Part shown: piece after piece, positions 1,064 to 12,565 of the stretch | Layout of the letters: each line of letters opens with the position of its first letter | Numbering within the stretch: the stretch's first letter is position 1 | NCBI GenBank assembly: GCA_018830135.1 | Contig: JAHJTB010000479.1 | Span: forward strand, 1-39,139 | DNA: 39,139 bases | DNA from: Pseudomonadota bacterium | Lineage (GTDB): Bacteria > Desulfobacterota > Desulfarculia > Adiutricales > JAGVGV01 | Reading direction: 5' to 3' | Translations under genes and position numbers: made by a program | Notes under the pieces: generated by a model | Told to the model about the DNA's origin: nothing | Seen by the model: only the letters and a program-made list of their open reading frames with translations | The model's database searches: none

Positions 1064-2069
1064 ATCCTTCCTGCGCCGCGAGATTCCGGGGCTTTCCGGG
1101 CCCATGCGGCTGCTACAGTTCCCCGGCGGACACTCGAACCTGACCTATCACCTGGCTTTCGGGGACCGGGAAATGGTCCTCCGGCGCGGACCGTTCGGGA
1201 CCAAGGTGGCCACGGCCCACGACATGGGCCGGGAGTACCGCGTGCTATCCGCGGTGCATCGAGTCTACCCTTACGCGCCCGAGCCCCTGGCCTTTTGCGA
1301 GGACGAGTCTCTGCTGGGCTTCGGCTTCTATGTCATGGAACGCATCCGCGGCCTGGTTTTGCGCCGGCAACTGCCGCCCGGTCTCGATGCCACGCCGGAG
1401 CAGGGCCGCCGGCTGGCCTACAATCTGATCAGGACCCAGTATGAACTGCACGCCCTGGACTATCGGGCCGTGGGACTGGAAAACTTCGGCCGGCCCGCCG
1501 GGTACGTCGAACGCCAGGTCCGGGGCTGGATCAAGCGCTACCGGAACGCACGGACCCCGGACGCCCCCGGGGCCGAAGACCTCATGGAACGCCTCGAACA
1601 CCGCCTGCCGCCCGACGAGGGCCGATCGGCCCTGATCCACAACGATTTCAAGCTGGACAACGTGATCGTCGATTCCTCGGACATTGTCCGGATCGTGGGT
1701 GTGTTCGATTGGGAGATGGCCACGCTGGGGGACCCGATCCTGGACCTGGTCGGCTCCCTGGCCTACATCATCGAACCGGACGACCCGCCGGAGATGGAGG
1801 CCAACAACCAGTGGCCGCCGGCCCTCCGAAGCGGGGTGACCCGGAGGGAACTGCTGGAATACTACGAGTCCCTCTCCGGGCTCCGGATCGAGAACTTCGA
1901 CTATTTATACGGCTTCGCCCTTTTTCGGCTGGCGGTCATCATCCAGCAGCTTTATTATCGCTATTACCACGGCCAGACGCGGGACGAGCGCTTCGCGCCC
2001 ATGATTCACGGCGTCATCGCCCTGATCCGCGAGGCGGCCCGGGTTTTCGAACTCGCCGGCCTGTCCTGA
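999..2069 (+). CDS. APH-fold phosphotransferase, ACAD10/11 N-terminal / LvaA-like (copy 1)
   Basis: QFPGGHSNLTYHL, catalytic loop HNDFKLDN and FDWEMATLGDP, typical of the APH/choline kinase superfamily ACAD10-like branch. Confidence 0.88.
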   Translation: MDFSDQPKDVRPDEELPTEAIESFLRREIPGLSGPMRLLQFPGGHSNLTYHLAFGDREMVLRRGPFGTKVATAHDMGREYRVLSAVHRVYPYAPEPLAFCEDESLLGFGFYVMERIRGLVLRRQLPPGLDATPEQGRRLAYNLIRTQYELHALDYRAVGLENFGRPAGYVERQVRGWIKRYRNARTPDAPGAEDLMERLEHRLPPDEGRSALIHNDFKLDNVIVDSSDIVRIVGVFDWEMATLGDPILDLVGSLAYIIEPDDPPEMEANNQWPPALRSGVTRRELLEYYESLSGLRIENFDYLYGFALFRLAVIIQQLYYRYYHGQTRDERFAPMIHGVIALIREAARVFELAGLS

Positions 2070-2132
2070 ACCGGCGCGTGGCGATCTTCCCCGTAAGGAT
2101 TCAGGGAGGGGATATCAACAAGGAGAGGACAA

Positions 2133-3200
2133 GTGAACGCATATACGGATCAGCCCAAAGAGATACGCCCGGGTGAGGAGTTGGACCGGGTCCGGCTCGA
2201 TGCATTTCTTCGGGAAGCCGTCCCCGGACTGGACGGCGAGTTGGAAATCAAGCAGTTCCCGGGAGGTCATTCCAATCTGACCTACTATCTGAGGATGGGC
2301 GGCCGGGAGATGGTTCTGCGCCGACCGCCTTTCGGCTCGACGGTCAAGAGCGCCCACGACATGTCGCGTGAATACCGGGTTCTGGCGGCCCTCCATTCGG
2401 TCTACCCGTACGCGCCCAGACCGCTGGCCTTTTCGGACGACGCCTCGGTAATCGGCGACCAGTTCTACGTCATGGAGCGGATCGTGGGTACGGTCATTCG
2501 CCGTGAACTCCCGCCCGGACTGACCCTGACCCCGGACCAGTGCCGGGGCCTTTACGAAAACCTGGTCCGGGTGCAGTACGAACTTCATTCCCTGGACTAC
2601 CAGGCCGTGGGCCTGGGGGACCTGGGCAAGCCGGAAGGGTATGTCCGCCGTCAGGTCGAAGGGTGGAGCCGGCGTTACCGGAACGCCCGCACGCCGGACG
2701 CCCGGGACGGGGACGCGGTCATGGATTGGTTCGCCGGGCACGTCCCGCCGGACAACGACCGGCCGGGCATCATTCACAACGACTTCAAGCTGGACAACGT
2801 CACCGTGTCCCCGGACGACCCGTCCCGGGTCATCGGCGTGTTCGACTGGGAGATGGCCACCCTGGGCGATCCGCTCATGGATTTTTGCAACTCGCTTTCC
2901 TACGTTTACCAGGAAGGCGATCCCCCGGAGATGGCCGTGATCAACACCTACCCCCGGGTCATGCACGGAACCATGACCCGGGAGGAAATGATCGCCTTGT
3001 ACGAAGCGCTTTCAGGCCGGAAAATCGGCGACATTCACTACTACTACGCCTTCGGCCTTTTCCGGCTGGCGGTCATCGCCCAGCAGATATACTACCGATA
3101 TTACCACGGCAAGACCCGGGACGAACGCTTCGCCTTCATGGTCGTTGCCACCAATACCCTGGTCGACGCGGCGGCCCGGAGCATCGAGCGGGCCGGGTGA
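2133..3200 (+). CDS. APH-fold phosphotransferase, ACAD10/11 N-terminal / LvaA-like (copy 2)
   Basis: GTG start after an AAGGAGAGG SD; QFPGGHSNLTYYL, IIHNDFKLDN, FDWEMATLGDP. Collinear with copies 1 and 3. Confidence 0.88.
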   Translation: MNAYTDQPKEIRPGEELDRVRLDAFLREAVPGLDGELEIKQFPGGHSNLTYYLRMGGREMVLRRPPFGSTVKSAHDMSREYRVLAALHSVYPYAPRPLAFSDDASVIGDQFYVMERIVGTVIRRELPPGLTLTPDQCRGLYENLVRVQYELHSLDYQAVGLGDLGKPEGYVRRQVEGWSRRYRNARTPDARDGDAVMDWFAGHVPPDNDRPGIIHNDFKLDNVTVSPDDPSRVIGVFDWEMATLGDPLMDFCNSLSYVYQEGDPPEMAVINTYPRVMHGTMTREEMIALYEALSGRKIGDIHYYYAFGLFRLAVIAQQIYYRYYHGKTRDERFAFMVVATNTLVDAAARSIERAG

Positions 3201-3327
3201 AGCGGGCCGGGACAAGACGCCCCGGCGGTCCCCGGGCGGGACGCGGGGAGAGCCCAATATCAACGGCGGGCGGCGGCCGGGCCGAAGCGAGGCCTGTCGG
3301 CCGTCTTATCCAGAAAGGGAGAGCATC

Positions 3328-4854
3328 ATGGCTATAAAGACCTTTGACGACTTCATTCAGCGAATGAACCGGATGAAAGACAACCTCTACATGGGAGGAG
3401 AAAAAATCAGCCGGACCGACGAACGGTTGAAAGGCGGGCAGCGTATCATCAAAGAGACGTACGACGTGGCCCACCGGCCGGAGTTCGAGGCCCTGTGCAC
3501 GGCGACCTCCCACCTGACCGGCGAGCGGATCAGCCGCTTCTGCCATGTCCACCAGAGCACCGATGACCTGCTGGCCAAACAGCAGATGACCCGGGCCCTG
3601 TGCCACCGGGTCGGGGGCTGCATCCAGCGCTGCATGGGCATCGACGCCATCAACGCCCTTTCGGTCATCACTTATGAAATGGATCAGGGCCTGGGCACGG
3701 ACTGCGATCAGAAGTTCCGGACCTATCTGAAATATTTCCAGGACAACGACCTGGTGGCCAGTTGCGCCCAGACCGATCCCAAGGGCGACCGGCTCAAGCG
3801 GCCGCACGAGCAGGCCGACCCGGACCAGTACCTGCGGATTATCGAAAGCCGGCCCGACGGCATCGTGGTGCGGGGGGCCAAGATCAACATCACCAACACC
3901 CCGTACGCGGACGAGATCGTGGTCGTGCCCACGCGGTTCATGACGGCCCGGGACGGCGATTACGCCGTGGCCTTCGCCATTCCGGCGGACTGGGACGACG
4001 TCAAGCTGCTGGTCCGGCCCGCCTACCATCATAAAAGAAAACATCTCAAGGCGCCCATCTCCGAGATCGGCGACGGTGAGGCCTTCATCATTTTCGACGA
4101 CACGTTCATCCCCCGGGACCGGGTCTTCATGGACGGCAAGGGCGACCCCCGTCAGACGGCCTACGCCGGGTTCCTGGCCCTGCTGTTCGCCCATTACCAC
4201 CGGCACAGCTACACCGGCTGCAAGCCCGCCGTTTCCGAGGTTCTGGCCAGCGCCGCGGCCTTGATGGCCGAATACAACGGGATCGAGAAGGAGGCCCACG
4301 TCAAGGAAAAGATTTCCCATCTGATCGGGACGGCCGAACTGGTCTTCGCCGCCGGCCAGGTCAGCGCCTACCGGGCCGAGGTCTCGCCCTCCGGCACGGC
4401 CATTCCCGACGAGATTCTGACCAATGCCGGCCGCCGTCTGGCCGGGGAAGAGATTTACAACGAGTACAAGACCCTGGCCGACCTGTCCGGCGGCCTGGTG
4501 GCCACCCTGCCCTTCGAGGACGAGTTCTTCTCGGACGAAACCGGCCAACTGGCCAACAAGTATCTCCAGCGGAACCCCAACATCAGCACGGAAAACGTTC
4601 ATCGCTGCTTCCGGGGCATGGAGAACCTGATCCTGTCGGACATCGCCGGCGTGCTCGGCATGCTGGCCGGCATCCACGGCGGCGGATCGCCCCAGATGGA
4701 GACCATCACCATGATGGCCCGATACGACATGGGCAAGCTGAAGAACATCGCCAAATACCTCTTCGGCATCGAACCGCAACTGCCGATGTACACCCGGGAG
4801 ACCGTCACCCCTCGGGCCATGCTGGACCGCTTCCGGAAACAGTCCAAGGAATGA
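3328..4854 (+). CDS. 4-hydroxybutyryl-CoA dehydratase / vinylacetyl-CoA isomerase-like protein (HpaB/AbfD family)
   Basis: MAIKTFDDFIQRMNRMKDNLYMGGEK...; C98-IQR-C102 and H291-X6-C298 correspond to the AbfD [4Fe-4S] ligand pattern (C99, C103, H292, C299 in the Clostridium enzyme, recalled). Confidence 0.88.
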   Translation: MAIKTFDDFIQRMNRMKDNLYMGGEKISRTDERLKGGQRIIKETYDVAHRPEFEALCTATSHLTGERISRFCHVHQSTDDLLAKQQMTRALCHRVGGCIQRCMGIDAINALSVITYEMDQGLGTDCDQKFRTYLKYFQDNDLVASCAQTDPKGDRLKRPHEQADPDQYLRIIESRPDGIVVRGAKINITNTPYADEIVVVPTRFMTARDGDYAVAFAIPADWDDVKLLVRPAYHHKRKHLKAPISEIGDGEAFIIFDDTFIPRDRVFMDGKGDPRQTAYAGFLALLFAHYHRHSYTGCKPAVSEVLASAAALMAEYNGIEKEAHVKEKISHLIGTAELVFAAGQVSAYRAEVSPSGTAIPDEILTNAGRRLAGEEIYNEYKTLADLSGGLVATLPFEDEFFSDETGQLANKYLQRNPNISTENVHRCFRGMENLILSDIAGVLGMLAGIHGGGSPQMETITMMARYDMGKLKNIAKYLFGIEPQLPMYTRETVTPRAMLDRFRKQSKE

Positions 4855-7974: not shown

Positions 7975-8020
7975 ATTCATCGAGGCATTGTTTCAGAATA
8001 ACCGCCCTGAAGGAGTCCCC

Positions 8021-9685
8021 ATGAACCAGACCCATTATCCGTTTTGGCCCAAGCGCATGCCCACAACCCTGGTCTATCCCCGGACGCCGCTTTACGATTT
8101 CATGGAGACGTCGGCCCGTCGATACCCCGATCATACCGCCGTGGTCTGCTACGGCCGCCGCCTGAATTACGCCGAGCTCGACGAGGCCTGCCTGCGACTG
8201 GCCGGGGCCCTGGCCGGATTCGGCGTCGAAAAGGGCGATCGGGTCGCCTTGTACATGCAGAACTGTCCCCATTTCATCATCGGATTCTTCGGGACCATGC
8301 GGGCCAACGCCGTGCTCGTCCCGCTCAATCCCATGCTGGTGCCTGAAGAGTTCCGCAAGCTGCTCCGGGACTCGGGCGCGCGGGTCGTCATCACCACCAC
8401 CGAACTCTATGACCGGGCGGCCGAGGTCTGCCGGGAACTGGGCATCGAAAAGATCATCGTCGGCTCCCATCGGGACTACCTGCCCGAAGCCCCCGAACTG
8501 CCCGTGCCGCCCTTCATGCTCGAGGCGCCGGAGCGGATCGAAGGCGCCCCGGCCTGGCTGGATGTCCTGGCCGAAGCCGGACCGCCTCCCGAGGTCCGGG
8601 TCGGACCGGACGACCTGTGCCTGCTGCCCTACACCGCCGGTTCGACCGGTATTCCCAAGGGCTGCATGCATACCCACGCCAGCCTGACCTCCAACAGCCT
8701 GGGCGCCGCCGTGTTCGTGGGCATGACCGCCGCCAGTGTCCATCTGGCCGCCCTGCCGTTTTTTCACGTCACCGGCATGGTCCATAGCATGGTCGGCCCG
8801 GTAGTGGCCGGCGGAACCATCGTTCTGCTGACCCGATGGGACCGGGAGGCCGGACTCCAGGCCATTGAAAAATATCGGTGCACCCACTGGGTCAATATCA
8901 CGACCATGCTCATCGACGCCCTGGCCGCGCCGGGCATCGAATCCAGGGACCTGGGGTCCCTGCTCCAGGTCGGAGGCGGCGGCGCGCCGCTGCCCGTGGC
9001 CGTGGGCGAGCAGTTGCGCGACCTGACCGGACTGACCTACGTCGAAGGCTACGGCCTGACCGAAACCATCTCCCAGACCCATTTCAATCCCCCGGACCGG
9101 GCCAGACTCGGCAGCGTAGGCGTGCCCCACTTCGGAACCGACTCCCGCGTGATCGACCCGTCCACAGGCGTGGAGGTCCCCCCGGGCCAGGACGGCGAGA
9201 TCGTGGTTCACGGGCCCCAGGTCCTCAAGGGCTACTGGAACAAGCCCGACGAAACCCGGGAGGCCTTCATCGAACTGGAAGGCAAGACCTTCTTTCGCAC
9301 CGGCGACATCGGACGAATGGACGAAGAAGGGTATTTCTACATCGTCGATCGGGTCAAGCGCATGATCAACGCGGCCGGTTTCAAGGTCTGGCCCACCGAG
9401 GTCGAGGCCGTGCTTTACCATCATCCGGCCGTGCTCGAGGCCTGCGTCGTCGGCGTGCCGGACCCGGAACGGGTCGAGAACGTCAAGGCCTTCATCGTGA
9501 CCAAACCGGAACATCGCGACCGGGTCTCGGCCGATGAGATCATCGCCTGGTCCCGGGAGCGAATGTCGGCCTACAAATACCCCCGCCTGGTCGAGTTCGT
9601 CGAGGAACTGCCCAAAAGTGGCGCCGGCAAGGTCCTGTGGCGGGTGCTTCAGGAACAGGAGCGGGAGCGGGTCGCGAAGGGCTGA
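8021..9685 (+). CDS. AMP-dependent acyl-CoA synthetase/ligase
   Basis: YTAGSTGIPKGCMHTH (A3-like), YGLTETISQTHFNP, FFRTGDIG, KRMINAAGFKVWPTEVE, C-terminal lysine motif PKSGAGKVLWR. Confidence 0.92.
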   Translation: MNQTHYPFWPKRMPTTLVYPRTPLYDFMETSARRYPDHTAVVCYGRRLNYAELDEACLRLAGALAGFGVEKGDRVALYMQNCPHFIIGFFGTMRANAVLVPLNPMLVPEEFRKLLRDSGARVVITTTELYDRAAEVCRELGIEKIIVGSHRDYLPEAPELPVPPFMLEAPERIEGAPAWLDVLAEAGPPPEVRVGPDDLCLLPYTAGSTGIPKGCMHTHASLTSNSLGAAVFVGMTAASVHLAALPFFHVTGMVHSMVGPVVAGGTIVLLTRWDREAGLQAIEKYRCTHWVNITTMLIDALAAPGIESRDLGSLLQVGGGGAPLPVAVGEQLRDLTGLTYVEGYGLTETISQTHFNPPDRARLGSVGVPHFGTDSRVIDPSTGVEVPPGQDGEIVVHGPQVLKGYWNKPDETREAFIELEGKTFFRTGDIGRMDEEGYFYIVDRVKRMINAAGFKVWPTEVEAVLYHHPAVLEACVVGVPDPERVENVKAFIVTKPEHRDRVSADEIIAWSRERMSAYKYPRLVEFVEELPKSGAGKVLWRVLQEQERERVAKG

Positions 9686-9733: not shown

Positions 9734-10726
9734 ATGAGCGGAGCGACGGTGAATACGGTCATGGGAGCCGTTGAGGCAAAGGACCTGGGGCGGACCCTGA
9801 TGCACGAGCACATCGTTTTCGGCTATCCCGGCTGGTACGGCGATCTGAGCGTGGCGCCGTACGATCGGGAGGCCGCGCTGGAAGCCGGTCTGGAACTCAT
9901 GGATCGGGTCAAGGAATACGGAGTGAATGCCCTGGTGGATGCCACGCCCAACGACTGCGGCCGGGACGTGGAACTGCTCCGGGAAATATCCGAACGGACC
10001 GGTGTTCACATCATCTGTTCCACCGGGTACTACCACGAGGGCGAGGGGGCGCCGGTCTATTTCAAGATTCGCAACAAGGTCGGCGATGCCGTAGCCGAGA
10101 TACACGAGCTGTTCGTCAAGGAGATCACCGAGGGGATCGGCGGCACCGGGATCAAGGCCGGGGTGATCAAGGTCGCTTCGGGCAAGAATGTCATCACCGA
10201 CTACGACAAGCTGTTTTTCAAGGCCGCCGCCCGGGCCCAGCAGGACACGGGCGTGCCCATCATCACCCATACCCAGGCCGGGACCATGGGGCCGGAGCAG
10301 GCCCGGCTGCTGATTTCCGAGGGGGCCGATCCCGGGCGGATCATGATCGGCCACATGAGCGACAGCACGGACATCCGCTACCACGTCCGGGTCCTTAACG
10401 AAGGGGTCTTCGTGGGCATCGATCGCCTGGGGCTCCAGTACATCGTCGGATGCCCGTGGGACGTCGAACGATACGCGGTCATCATCGGCCTTGTGGGCAT
10501 CGGATACGCGGACCGGCTGATGTTCTCCCACGACTGGGTCGCCTACTGGATGGGCCGCGAGACGCCCATGTCGGAAGCGGCCGTGCCTCTGCTCGGCAAC
10601 TGGTACCCGACCCATCTCTTCAAAAACGTCATCCCGGCCCTCAAGAAGGGGGGCGTGTCCGAGGCCCAGATCAAGACCATGATCGAGGGCAATCCCCGGC
10701 GGCTGTTCGAGGGCGGCCCGGCCTGA
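9734..10726 (+). CDS. Phosphotriesterase/lactonase-family metallohydrolase
   Basis: LMHEHIVFGYPG (HxH), AGVIKVAS (bridging Lys region), ITHTQAG, IGHMSDSTD, MFSHDW: PTE/PLL-type metal-ligand pattern. Confidence 0.85.
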   Translation: MSGATVNTVMGAVEAKDLGRTLMHEHIVFGYPGWYGDLSVAPYDREAALEAGLELMDRVKEYGVNALVDATPNDCGRDVELLREISERTGVHIICSTGYYHEGEGAPVYFKIRNKVGDAVAEIHELFVKEITEGIGGTGIKAGVIKVASGKNVITDYDKLFFKAAARAQQDTGVPIITHTQAGTMGPEQARLLISEGADPGRIMIGHMSDSTDIRYHVRVLNEGVFVGIDRLGLQYIVGCPWDVERYAVIIGLVGIGYADRLMFSHDWVAYWMGRETPMSEAAVPLLGNWYPTHLFKNVIPALKKGGVSEAQIKTMIEGNPRRLFEGGPA

Positions 10727-10761: not shown

Positions 10762-10789
10762 TTGACAATATACCGCCGGCCGATATAAT
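10762..10789 (+). promoter_or_regulatory. Consensus sigma70-type promoter
   Basis: TTGACA (10762-10767), 16-nt spacer, TATAAT (10784-10789). Confidence 0.85.
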
Positions 10790-10803
10790 TGACCCACGAG
10801 GAT

Positions 10804-10872
10804 ATGAGTATGCACGTCGTCACGCCCAATTATTATTACTTTTATTTTTTTAGGAGGACGTCCGGGCTTTAG
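10804..10872 (+). CDS. Aromatic-residue-rich leader peptide (MSMHVVTPNYYYFYFFRRTSGL); the second ATG at 10810 may be the real start
   Basis: ATG...TAG mini-ORF with TAT TAT TAC TTT TAT TTT TTT (YYYFYFF). GAGG SD at 10798-10801 is 8 nt before the ATG at 10810. Confidence 0.85.
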   Translation: MSMHVVTPNYYYFYFFRRTSGL

Positions 10873-10929
10873 TGTGTGACGACGCCCACGACCAGGAATC
10901 AAGCGGAGCACACACTCCGCTTTTTTATT
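10815..10929 (+). promoter_or_regulatory. Transcription attenuator (segments 1:2, 2:3, 3:4)
   Basis: 1:2 = CGTCGTCAC (10815-10823)/GTGACGACG (10876-10884). 2:3 = AGTGTGTG (10871-10878)/CACACACT (10909-10916). 3:4 = AAGCGGAG (10901-10908)/CTCCGCTT (10915-10922). Confidence 0.85.
10901..10929 (+). terminator. Rho-independent terminator of the attenuator
   Basis: AAGCGGAG-CACACA-CTCCGCTT followed by TTTTATT. Confidence 0.9.
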
Positions 10930-10975
10930 GGGCCGAAACCAGCCCTAACGGATGTCTTTTCGGAGGAAACGGGTC

Positions 10976-12565
10976 ATGACCCATCCCGCCCCCTTGGCGC
11001 CCTTGTCCGAATCCGATCCCGAACTGGCGCGCCTGAGTATCAACGACCGGCTCAGCCTGATCAGCCTGATCGACGAAGGAATTCGTCTGGGCTCTTCCGA
11101 CTCCCCCAAGGTGGCCGACCTGTTCGGCAACCTCTGGCAACTGGTCGGGGCCACGGTTTCGGGCAGCAAAATCGATCGTCTGGCGCCCGAACTCACCCCG
11201 AAAGGCTTTCGGGTCTTCGAGATCAACGCCGATTCCGGAGAAAACCTGGGCCGGCTGAACATGATTTATCTCAAAAAGCCCATCCCCTGCTATTACCTGG
11301 TCTTTGTCGAGGTCGCGCCGCCCTTCCGGCGCAAGGGCCTGGGGAATCGAATCCTGGAGTACTTCCGGGGCTTTTTGAAGGAAAAATCCGCGGTGGGCAT
11401 CCTGGACAACATCATTCCCGAGGACGATCCGACGTATGACATTTACGCCAAACAGGCCTGGGAACCCATCGAGGACGTCATCGGGGAAGGCTTGACCGAT
11501 CCGGAAGACAACTACATGGTCTTCATCCCGCCCTGCCTGCGAGGGAAGGACATTCGCGGACCCCTGGTCAAGCTGATCCATCACTTGAAAAGGAAGCGCG
11601 CCGTCATCGATATGCGGGACAACGAGGTCATGGTCGGCCGGACCATCGCCGAGTTCCGGGAGGTGTTTGGCGCCCTTCGGGCCTATTTCGGACCGGAGAT
11701 CGACCGGGGCGAAACCTCGCGGCTCATGTGCTTCATGTTCACCCGCTTCGTGACCAAGCTGATCGCTTTTCGCCGCCGGATCGGCGAACTGATCGGGTAC
11801 ACCGGCGGCGACTCCCTGGAGCAGATCATTCTGCCCGGGGAAATCGCGGTCCTGCCCGTCCAGTCCTACGCGCCCCGGGAACTGGACAGCAGGCCGCTGT
11901 CCTGGTTCGGTGAAGAGGACCTGTGGGTCAGGCTGCCCGAGGACCTCAAACAGCGGCCGGCCCGCTTCATCGAATCGTTGCCCGACTATCAACGCCCCAG
12001 CCTGATCAACTGGCGGCGGGACCGGGGGGGCGAACCGGGCCGGACCATGACCCTCGGCGATCTGATGGACCTGGGCTTCGATCCGACACGGCTCAAGGAA
12101 ATCGCGGTCGATGGCCGGGACTACATTTTCGAACGCATCCAGGTCCGCCAGGTCGAGGAACTGAGGAGAAAAAAGGAGATTCTGGAGCGGCTGGCTTCGG
12201 AAATGCCCGGGGCTCGGGTCAAGAACGCCCGGCTCGGGGCCAACCAGGTTCGGCTGGTCATACTCGACAGCGGAAACGCGTACGTCCTGCGCCGCAAGGT
12301 GGAAGGCATCCACTGGGAGGAGGCGGTCGAACAGCTCCAGACCACGGAGGAGTTGAAAAAGGTCAATGCTTCGACCCGGATCGACCGGCTGATCCTGGCC
12401 ACCGTCCGTAAGGTCAACCAGACCGTTGCCCGTAAGCTGGACCTGGACGAAAAAATGGTCCAGGACCAGATGACCTGCTTCGTTTCCTGGGACCTGGCCG
12501 GCAACCGGCCCCGGCTGCTTATCGACTACGCCGGCACTTCCCTCGATGCGGTATGGATGGCCTGA
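10976..12565 (+). CDS. GNAT-domain protein of unknown function (about 529 aa)
   Basis: SD GGAGGA then ATG at 10976. N-terminal GNAT signature YLVFVEVAPPFRRKGLGNRILEYF (acetyl-CoA loop RRKGLG); C-terminal about 350 aa not recognised. Confidence 0.75.
   Translation: MTHPAPLAPLSESDPELARLSINDRLSLISLIDEGIRLGSSDSPKVADLFGNLWQLVGATVSGSKIDRLAPELTPKGFRVFEINADSGENLGRLNMIYLKKPIPCYYLVFVEVAPPFRRKGLGNRILEYFRGFLKEKSAVGILDNIIPEDDPTYDIYAKQAWEPIEDVIGEGLTDPEDNYMVFIPPCLRGKDIRGPLVKLIHHLKRKRAVIDMRDNEVMVGRTIAEFREVFGALRAYFGPEIDRGETSRLMCFMFTRFVTKLIAFRRRIGELIGYTGGDSLEQIILPGEIAVLPVQSYAPRELDSRPLSWFGEEDLWVRLPEDLKQRPARFIESLPDYQRPSLINWRRDRGGEPGRTMTLGDLMDLGFDPTRLKEIAVDGRDYIFERIQVRQVEELRRKKEILERLASEMPGARVKNARLGANQVRLVILDSGNAYVLRRKVEGIHWEEAVEQLQTTEELKKVNASTRIDRLILATVRKVNQTVARKLDLDEKMVQDQMTCFVSWDLAGNRPRLLIDYAGTSLDAVWMA

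Follow-up and report, generated by a model that had tools for sequence, protein, structure and literature searches.

The closest described parallels to the locus considered here are the transcription attenuators ahead of pheA and trpEDCBA in Escherichia coli. In the pheL-pheA system, a short leader peptide carries a run of regulatory codons, all of them for Phe, a stop codon lies next to segment 2 of the RNA, three pairings compete, and a terminator with a U tract precedes the gene. The trpL-trpEDCBA system operates through Trp codons and the same succession of 1:2, 2:3 and 3:4 pairings. The window, a term used here for the whole 39,139-nt stretch of DNA analysed, carries a leader that an earlier note had read as a Tyr/Phe-responsive attenuator. 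At the level of sequence comparison this reading is supported, both by homologous leaders in many genera and by kindred leaders on aromatic biosynthetic operons. The locus most likely represents a genuine ribosome-mediated Phe/Tyr attenuator that belongs to a leader family absent from Rfam and has a variant antiterminator geometry.

The features of the locus are collected in Table 1. The promoter described in the earlier note matches the consensus at every position, and TTGACA-type -35 boxes lie upstream of the homologous leaders in similar placement. Directly upstream, the window carries genes for an acyl-CoA ligase (7988-9685) and a phosphotriesterase-family protein (9734-10726), which the predicted promoter at 10762 would place in a separate transcription unit. 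Translation confirms the leader peptide with seven consecutive aromatic codons, and its TAG stop is found where it had been placed; 7 nt, not 8 as previously counted, separate segment 1 from the first Tyr codon. The leader ORF is thus translatable (GAGG-8-ATG) and rich in the regulating codons, and it is conserved in relatives. An inverted-repeat search with a minimum of 8 bases across 10795-10930 returned exactly three repeats, all perfect, and these are the previously proposed competing pairings 1:2 (9 bp) and 2:3 (8 bp) and the 3:4 terminator stem (8 bp) with its U-rich tail. An intrinsic terminator with a U tract therefore stands before the structural gene, and competing 2:3 and 3:4 pairings are joined by 1:2. 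By sequence, the mutual exclusion of 2:3 and 3:4 is partial, as they have two bases in common plus the loop, and 2:3, once formed, would leave six pairs of the terminator possible; the overlap of 2:3 with 1:2 amounts to three bases only.

Table 1. Features of the attenuator and of the gene it precedes, in window coordinates
Feature	Position	Strand	Basis and remarks
Sigma-70-type promoter TTGACA-16-TATAAT	10762-10789	+	-35 TTGACA at 10762-10767, 16 nt, -10 TATAAT at 10784-10789; 12/12 consensus; 0.2 expected in shuffles
Leader ORF Shine-Dalgarno GAGG	10798-10801	+	8 nt before ATG 10810; sequence
Leader peptide MHVVTPNYYYFYFFRRTSGL	10810-10872	+	ATG 10810, TAG 10870-10872; translation; aromatic-run leaders of homologues spaced alike
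Segment 1 (CGTCGTCAC)	10815-10823	+	perfect inverted repeat with 10876-10884; helix in free-leader MFE
Regulatory codons TAT TAT TAC TTT TAT TTT TTT (YYYFYFF)	10831-10851	+	sequence; pattern match
AGGAGG with small palindrome, internal Shine-Dalgarno-like	10852-10863	+	between aromatic codons and stop; kept in relatives
Segment 2	10871-10884	+	10871-10878 pairs with segment 3; 10876-10884 pairs with segment 1
Intrinsic terminator AAGCGGAG-CACACA-CTCCGCTT + TTTTTT (3:4)	10901-10926	+	inverted repeat 10901-10908/10915-10922; stem nearly invariant in 13 leaders
Segment 3 (CACACACT)	10909-10916	+	terminator loop and first two bases of its 3' arm; pairs with 10871-10878
Regulated gene, GNAT-domain protein	10976-12565	+	likely start 10976; longest ORF from 10952

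In the proposed mechanism, a shortage of Phe or Tyr would stall the leader ribosome in the YYYFYFF run, where it would cover segment 1. Segment 2, beside the stop codon, would then pair with segment 3 as the terminator loop leaves RNA polymerase, the terminator hairpin would fail, and the GNAT-domain gene would be read. With Phe and Tyr plentiful, the ribosome at the stop codon would cover segment 2 and the terminator would form; in a leader without a ribosome, 1:2 would likewise leave the terminator free. The distances in the window, similar in the 13 leaders introduced below, place the stall site over segment 1 and the stop codon so as to lead the ribosome onto segment 2. Folding of the free leader yields 1:2 plus the terminator at -36.9 kcal/mol, moderately better than shuffled sequences (z -2.5). 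With a ribosome at the stop codon the terminator has a probability of 1.00, and with a stalled ribosome and RNA emerged only as far as segment 3, the 2:3 pairing reaches 0.96, whereas for the full RNA at equilibrium the stalled state gives 0.99 for the terminator versus 0.01 for 2:3. Because the terminator outcompetes 2:3 at equilibrium, antitermination would need kinetic control; and because segment 3 consists of the terminator loop and two 3'-arm bases, the antiterminator would have to form before the 3' arm exits the polymerase and then hold the loop.

Taken by itself, the window is suggestive only, because aromatic codon runs reach chance level genome-wide: runs of six TAY/TTY codons gave 8 matches in the window's genome against 7 in a reversed control. 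Duplex tests on the window alone are also non-significant (p about 0.1). The TAT and TTT codons, whose AT-richness had been pointed out earlier, are present as described but carry no separate evidential weight, since Phe and Tyr have TAY/TTY codons only. It is conservation, and not the codon run or the fold score alone, that gives the attenuator its significance. The earlier note had staked its reading on conservation of the leader in relatives and had proposed a comparison of orthologous loci for compensatory changes. Homologues of the downstream gene were found in a Desulfomonile and a Desulfobacteraceae metagenome genome, and a sample of 395 genomes of the phylum yielded homologues in 33, of which about 30 are full length. 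The first two homologues have their own leaders with different peptides and stems on a common plan, and the same holds for homologues of about 39-59% protein identity (e.g. MSVTARHYYFYFYCFTRCRRLS, MIGTHTYFYYFYFSRGPAMS and MNAHAEKFFYFCFYFRGGARMA): peptides and stems diverge, the spacing is maintained and so is the complementarity, and at one pair a compensatory exchange is clear. Both expectations were thus borne out, as many genera have their own Y/F leader, terminator, competing pairings and conserved spacing, and one 2:3 pair shows a double change, from U-A to C-G, in four leaders.

Leaders of type A (the window, L001, L002, L007, L008, L010, L012-L015, L019 and L020) have a terminator built on GCGGAG...CTCCGC, and in most of them the stop codon runs into the antiterminator (TAGTGTGTG, TGAGTGTG, TAGCGTGTG); together with one paralogue they form the set of 13. 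In this set the start codon lies 18-27 nt from the aromatic run (39 in one), the run 18-27 nt from the stop, and the stop 32-38 nt from the terminator (47 in one). The 2:3 register is kept fully or nearly in 9 of the 13 and, held fixed, gives 81% paired positions versus at most 64% in slid controls, with 3 of 500 shuffles as good; the fixed register fails in L007, L014 and L019. Segment 1 changes together with segment 2 in most leaders, and when the leaders are tested jointly for duplex formation, p is about 6e-6 for 2:3 and about 2e-5 for 1:2, values to be read knowing that the leaders are related and hence not independent. Seven of the 13 (e.g. L020, L012, L013 and L008) carry an internal Shine-Dalgarno-like sequence (GGAGG/GGGGG) followed after 5-7 nt by an in-frame ATG, one codon and a stop. 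This putative minigene lies over segment 2 in the relatives, and in the window the AGGAGG is present and the ATG absent. Conceivably, it would bring a ribosome straight to segment 2 and so favour termination. A second leader subgroup (L026, L027, L028, L031, L034 and others) is built of several GGCCATGG-like segments in series. The anatomy of the attenuator, its conservation and the 2:3 covariation are established by these observations. A single regulatory logic has outlasted a large divergence in which the RNA sequence and, in one subgroup, the whole stem arrangement were replaced. A plain intrinsic terminator behind a chance aromatic ORF, with repeats that are incidental GT/AC-rich sequence, would account for the chance-level frequency of six-codon TWY runs in the genome and for the ability of a (GT)n/(AC)n repeat to pair in several registers (64% at a slide of +2). 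Because the whole arrangement is conserved from genus to genus and also stands on known aromatic operons, this explanation has almost no probability.

Those operons extend the comparison within and beyond the window's own genome (G000). There, an aroF-pheA-tyrA operon (contig C241) follows the leader MHNDLSTYTYDTDRAGRFFFFGFFYYFAAVCPWAQGGSG, with the run FFFFGFFYYF, and trpE on contig C169 (locus L062) is preceded by an FWWWW leader and a GACCCACCGTC...GACGGTGGGTC terminator, a Trp attenuator. A genome-wide scan for six-codon F/Y runs also brought to light a second type-A leader in G000, on the minus strand of L059 (contig C58, model match 4052-4188), with seven Tyr codons (MTVTRSEERYYYYYYYAGDGMS); behind it lies a signal-peptide remnant that runs into what, read by eye, resembles the C-terminal portion of the large subunit of a TRAP transporter. 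The locus may represent a transporter under tyrosine control that has decayed, or else a join made in assembly. Across the phylum, a covariance model of the type-A leader found members before aroK-aroC (YYYFFYF, FYFYFF, FYYFYY, YYFFYY), before aroF (FFSFYFWYF, FFFWFYF) and, as YLYYYYYY, before an MBL-fold gene. Two further matches precede CoA-related genes: in L085 (G362, contig C43, about 1760-3148), the Phe-rich leader MVNTIRGFFCFFSFRRSTCVT (GFFCFFSF) and a type-A terminator stand before a class III CoA-transferase, which hints at aryl-CoA chemistry under Phe control, and in L086 (G156, contig C1, about 1382-3891), the F/Y leader MKHNQLSQANFYYFYYNEGRNLPAY (FYYFYY) lies at a long distance from an ADP-forming acyl-CoA synthetase gene.

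Homologues of the window gene also occur inside aromatic operons. In L037 the order is aroB' (3-dehydroquinate synthase II), aroE, aroA, aroK, aroC, pheA, the window gene homologue, a DUF362 gene, a FabK-like gene and trpE, so that the DUF362 homologue lies between the GNAT gene and trpE. In L038 and L039, too, pheA is followed by the window gene homologue. Leaders with FYFYWFFY and FNFYWFYY belong to the operon regions of L037 and L038, and on the reverse strand of L038 (7570-8718) a DUF362 gene has its own Tyr leader MELGTKRMFDYYYYLQAIHLCA and terminator. In L009, L017 and L018, the homologue is fused to an MBL-fold domain, with an FFYF leader before the latter two. This shared regulon is itself an observation, and the way in which codon identity tracks the pathway is an argument for charged-tRNA sensing. 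The aromatic run could instead be a nascent-chain arrest sequence, like those of TnaC and SecM, or respond to another signal, in which case stalling would depend on the peptide and not on tRNA charging; a ribosome so arrested would affect the RNA identically, and the leaders do have a basic C-terminal part in common (RR/GR/RG). Yet Y and F are combined in freely varying order and proportion (YYYFYFF, YFYYFYF, FFYFCFYF, YYYYYYY), the leaders show no conservation at their N-terminal end, and the codons follow the pathway, with W before trpE, F/Y before aroF-pheA-tyrA, and F/Y/W heading complete aro-pheA-trpE operons, all of which makes peptide-dependent arrest very improbable. The leader can thus be regarded, with high confidence, as a ribosome-mediated attenuator that would sense charged tRNA-Phe and tRNA-Tyr and control a GNAT-domain gene of the aromatic amino acid regulon.

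How closely such leaders are associated with this gene family was gauged by a strict scan, which required a terminator and, ahead of it, a short ORF in which five or more of seven codons are aromatic. Leader and terminator precede 19 of 32 family genes versus 5 of about 210 other genes, and when the 218 genes of large loci were scanned, 8 of the 13 found were family genes again. The five non-family matches lie before aroF, a DeoC/LacD-type aldolase gene heading an aro operon, a DUF362 gene, an ADP-forming acyl-CoA synthetase gene and an MBL-fold gene, all of which fit an aromatic amino acid regulon. The count rises to 24 of 32 with the addition of L019 and L027 (from reading the loci), L011 (leader at an upstream MBL gene), and L021 and L022 (leaders at the operon heads). 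Of the remainder, L004 and L024 run off the end of their contigs, L025 and L033 gave an ambiguous picture, and a leader was not found for L009, L016, L023 and L029.

The regulated gene itself probably starts at the ATG at 10976, 9 nt behind a GGAGG, and not at 10952. Its protein, 529-537 aa in length, has no Pfam or NCBIfam match at threshold and, by sequence search, no solved relative; Acetyltransf_1 matches weakly in all four members scanned, with the window protein just under the cut-off. An AlphaFold2 model from 31 sequences reached a pLDDT of 81.5 (a 4-sequence run, at pLDDT 63, was discarded as too poor), and Foldseek aligned it with GNAT structures over the N-terminal part only. The downstream protein thus combines a predicted GNAT fold with an RxxGxG acyl-CoA loop (R126, G129, G131) that is invariant in 31 homologues, and its C-terminal ~340 residues (200-537) correspond to no recognised family among the matches found. 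The protein was also considered as a substitute for TyrA, prephenate dehydrogenase, an idea rejected because TyrA is present in the window's genome and in 18 of the 29 other carriers, and because the genomes that lack it group by lineage. In several nearly complete genomes, of family f13 and the f59 genomes G156 and G278, prephenate dehydrogenase (PF02153) is absent or below threshold.

The earlier note had stated that the downstream gene is not a biosynthetic gene. That claim is unsafe, given the homologues located within aro-pheA-trpE operons. The recurrence of the switch ahead of this gene in many relatives links it with the metabolism of aromatic amino acids, and it is probably an unrecognised part of Phe/Tyr metabolism. 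Tentatively, and at a little below even expectation, a fuller proposal can be framed on these comparative grounds: the GNAT-domain protein would be an enzyme, salvage enzyme or regulator of Phe/Tyr metabolism in the phylum, within a Phe/Tyr attenuation regulon whose further members would be a DUF362 protein, a class III CoA-transferase, an ADP-forming acyl-CoA synthetase and an MBL-fold hydrolase, the last of which is joined to the GNAT-domain protein as a fusion in some genomes, under attenuators with a loop-invading antiterminator and often a Shine-Dalgarno-ATG-codon-stop minigene over segment 2. It is a lesser though substantial possibility that the attenuator is real and the protein acts outside Phe/Tyr metabolism, for example as a starvation-induced stress modifier or a tRNA- or protein-acetylating factor, with Phe/Tyr shortage serving as a cue only. 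GNAT enzymes have many targets, the gene stands alone behind its attenuator in most genomes, and the protein fills no obvious pathway gap, given that most carriers retain tyrA and that aroF, pheA and tyrA are all present in the window's genome. Against this stand the three genomes in which the gene lies directly after pheA or within an aro/trp operon, and its retention under aromatic codons over a wide range. Attenuators reveal the purpose of a gene, as their codons name the amino acid, and by this token aromatic leaders would assign a widespread uncharacterised protein family and several companions to the aromatic amino acid metabolism of anaerobic bacteria.

Searches of Rfam assigned the window to no known leader family, either at the gathering threshold or with E values up to 10, and matched nothing except tRNAs in 20 loci. 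An earlier description was not found among the open-access papers searched, though some of the biosynthetic leaders may appear in subscription literature on attenuators of proteobacteria. Comparison with the described systems shows where the locus belongs. Like pheL-pheA, it combines a short leader peptide, an aromatic codon run, a stop next to segment 2, three competing pairings and a U-tract terminator before the gene; unlike pheL, it mixes Tyr and Phe codons, controls a gene other than pheA, and is unrelated in sequence, and segment 3 of pheL, like that of trpL, is the 5' arm of the terminator. The aroF-pheA-tyrA leader of the same genome resembles it in its mixed Phe/Tyr codons, terminator and aromatic regulon, and differs in having several GGCCATGG-type segments in series (by eye), an arrangement common to one subgroup of GNAT-gene leaders. 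With trpL-trpEDCBA it has in common the 1:2, 2:3, 3:4 logic and an antiterminator weaker than the terminator at equilibrium: by the same kind of calculation, the terminator wins in trpL and the antiterminator wins at full length in pheL. The enteric logic that the earlier note had recognised therefore holds as regards stalling and competing pairings but not as regards antiterminator geometry, since in the window the antiterminator takes as its partner the terminator loop, extended by two bases of the 3' arm.
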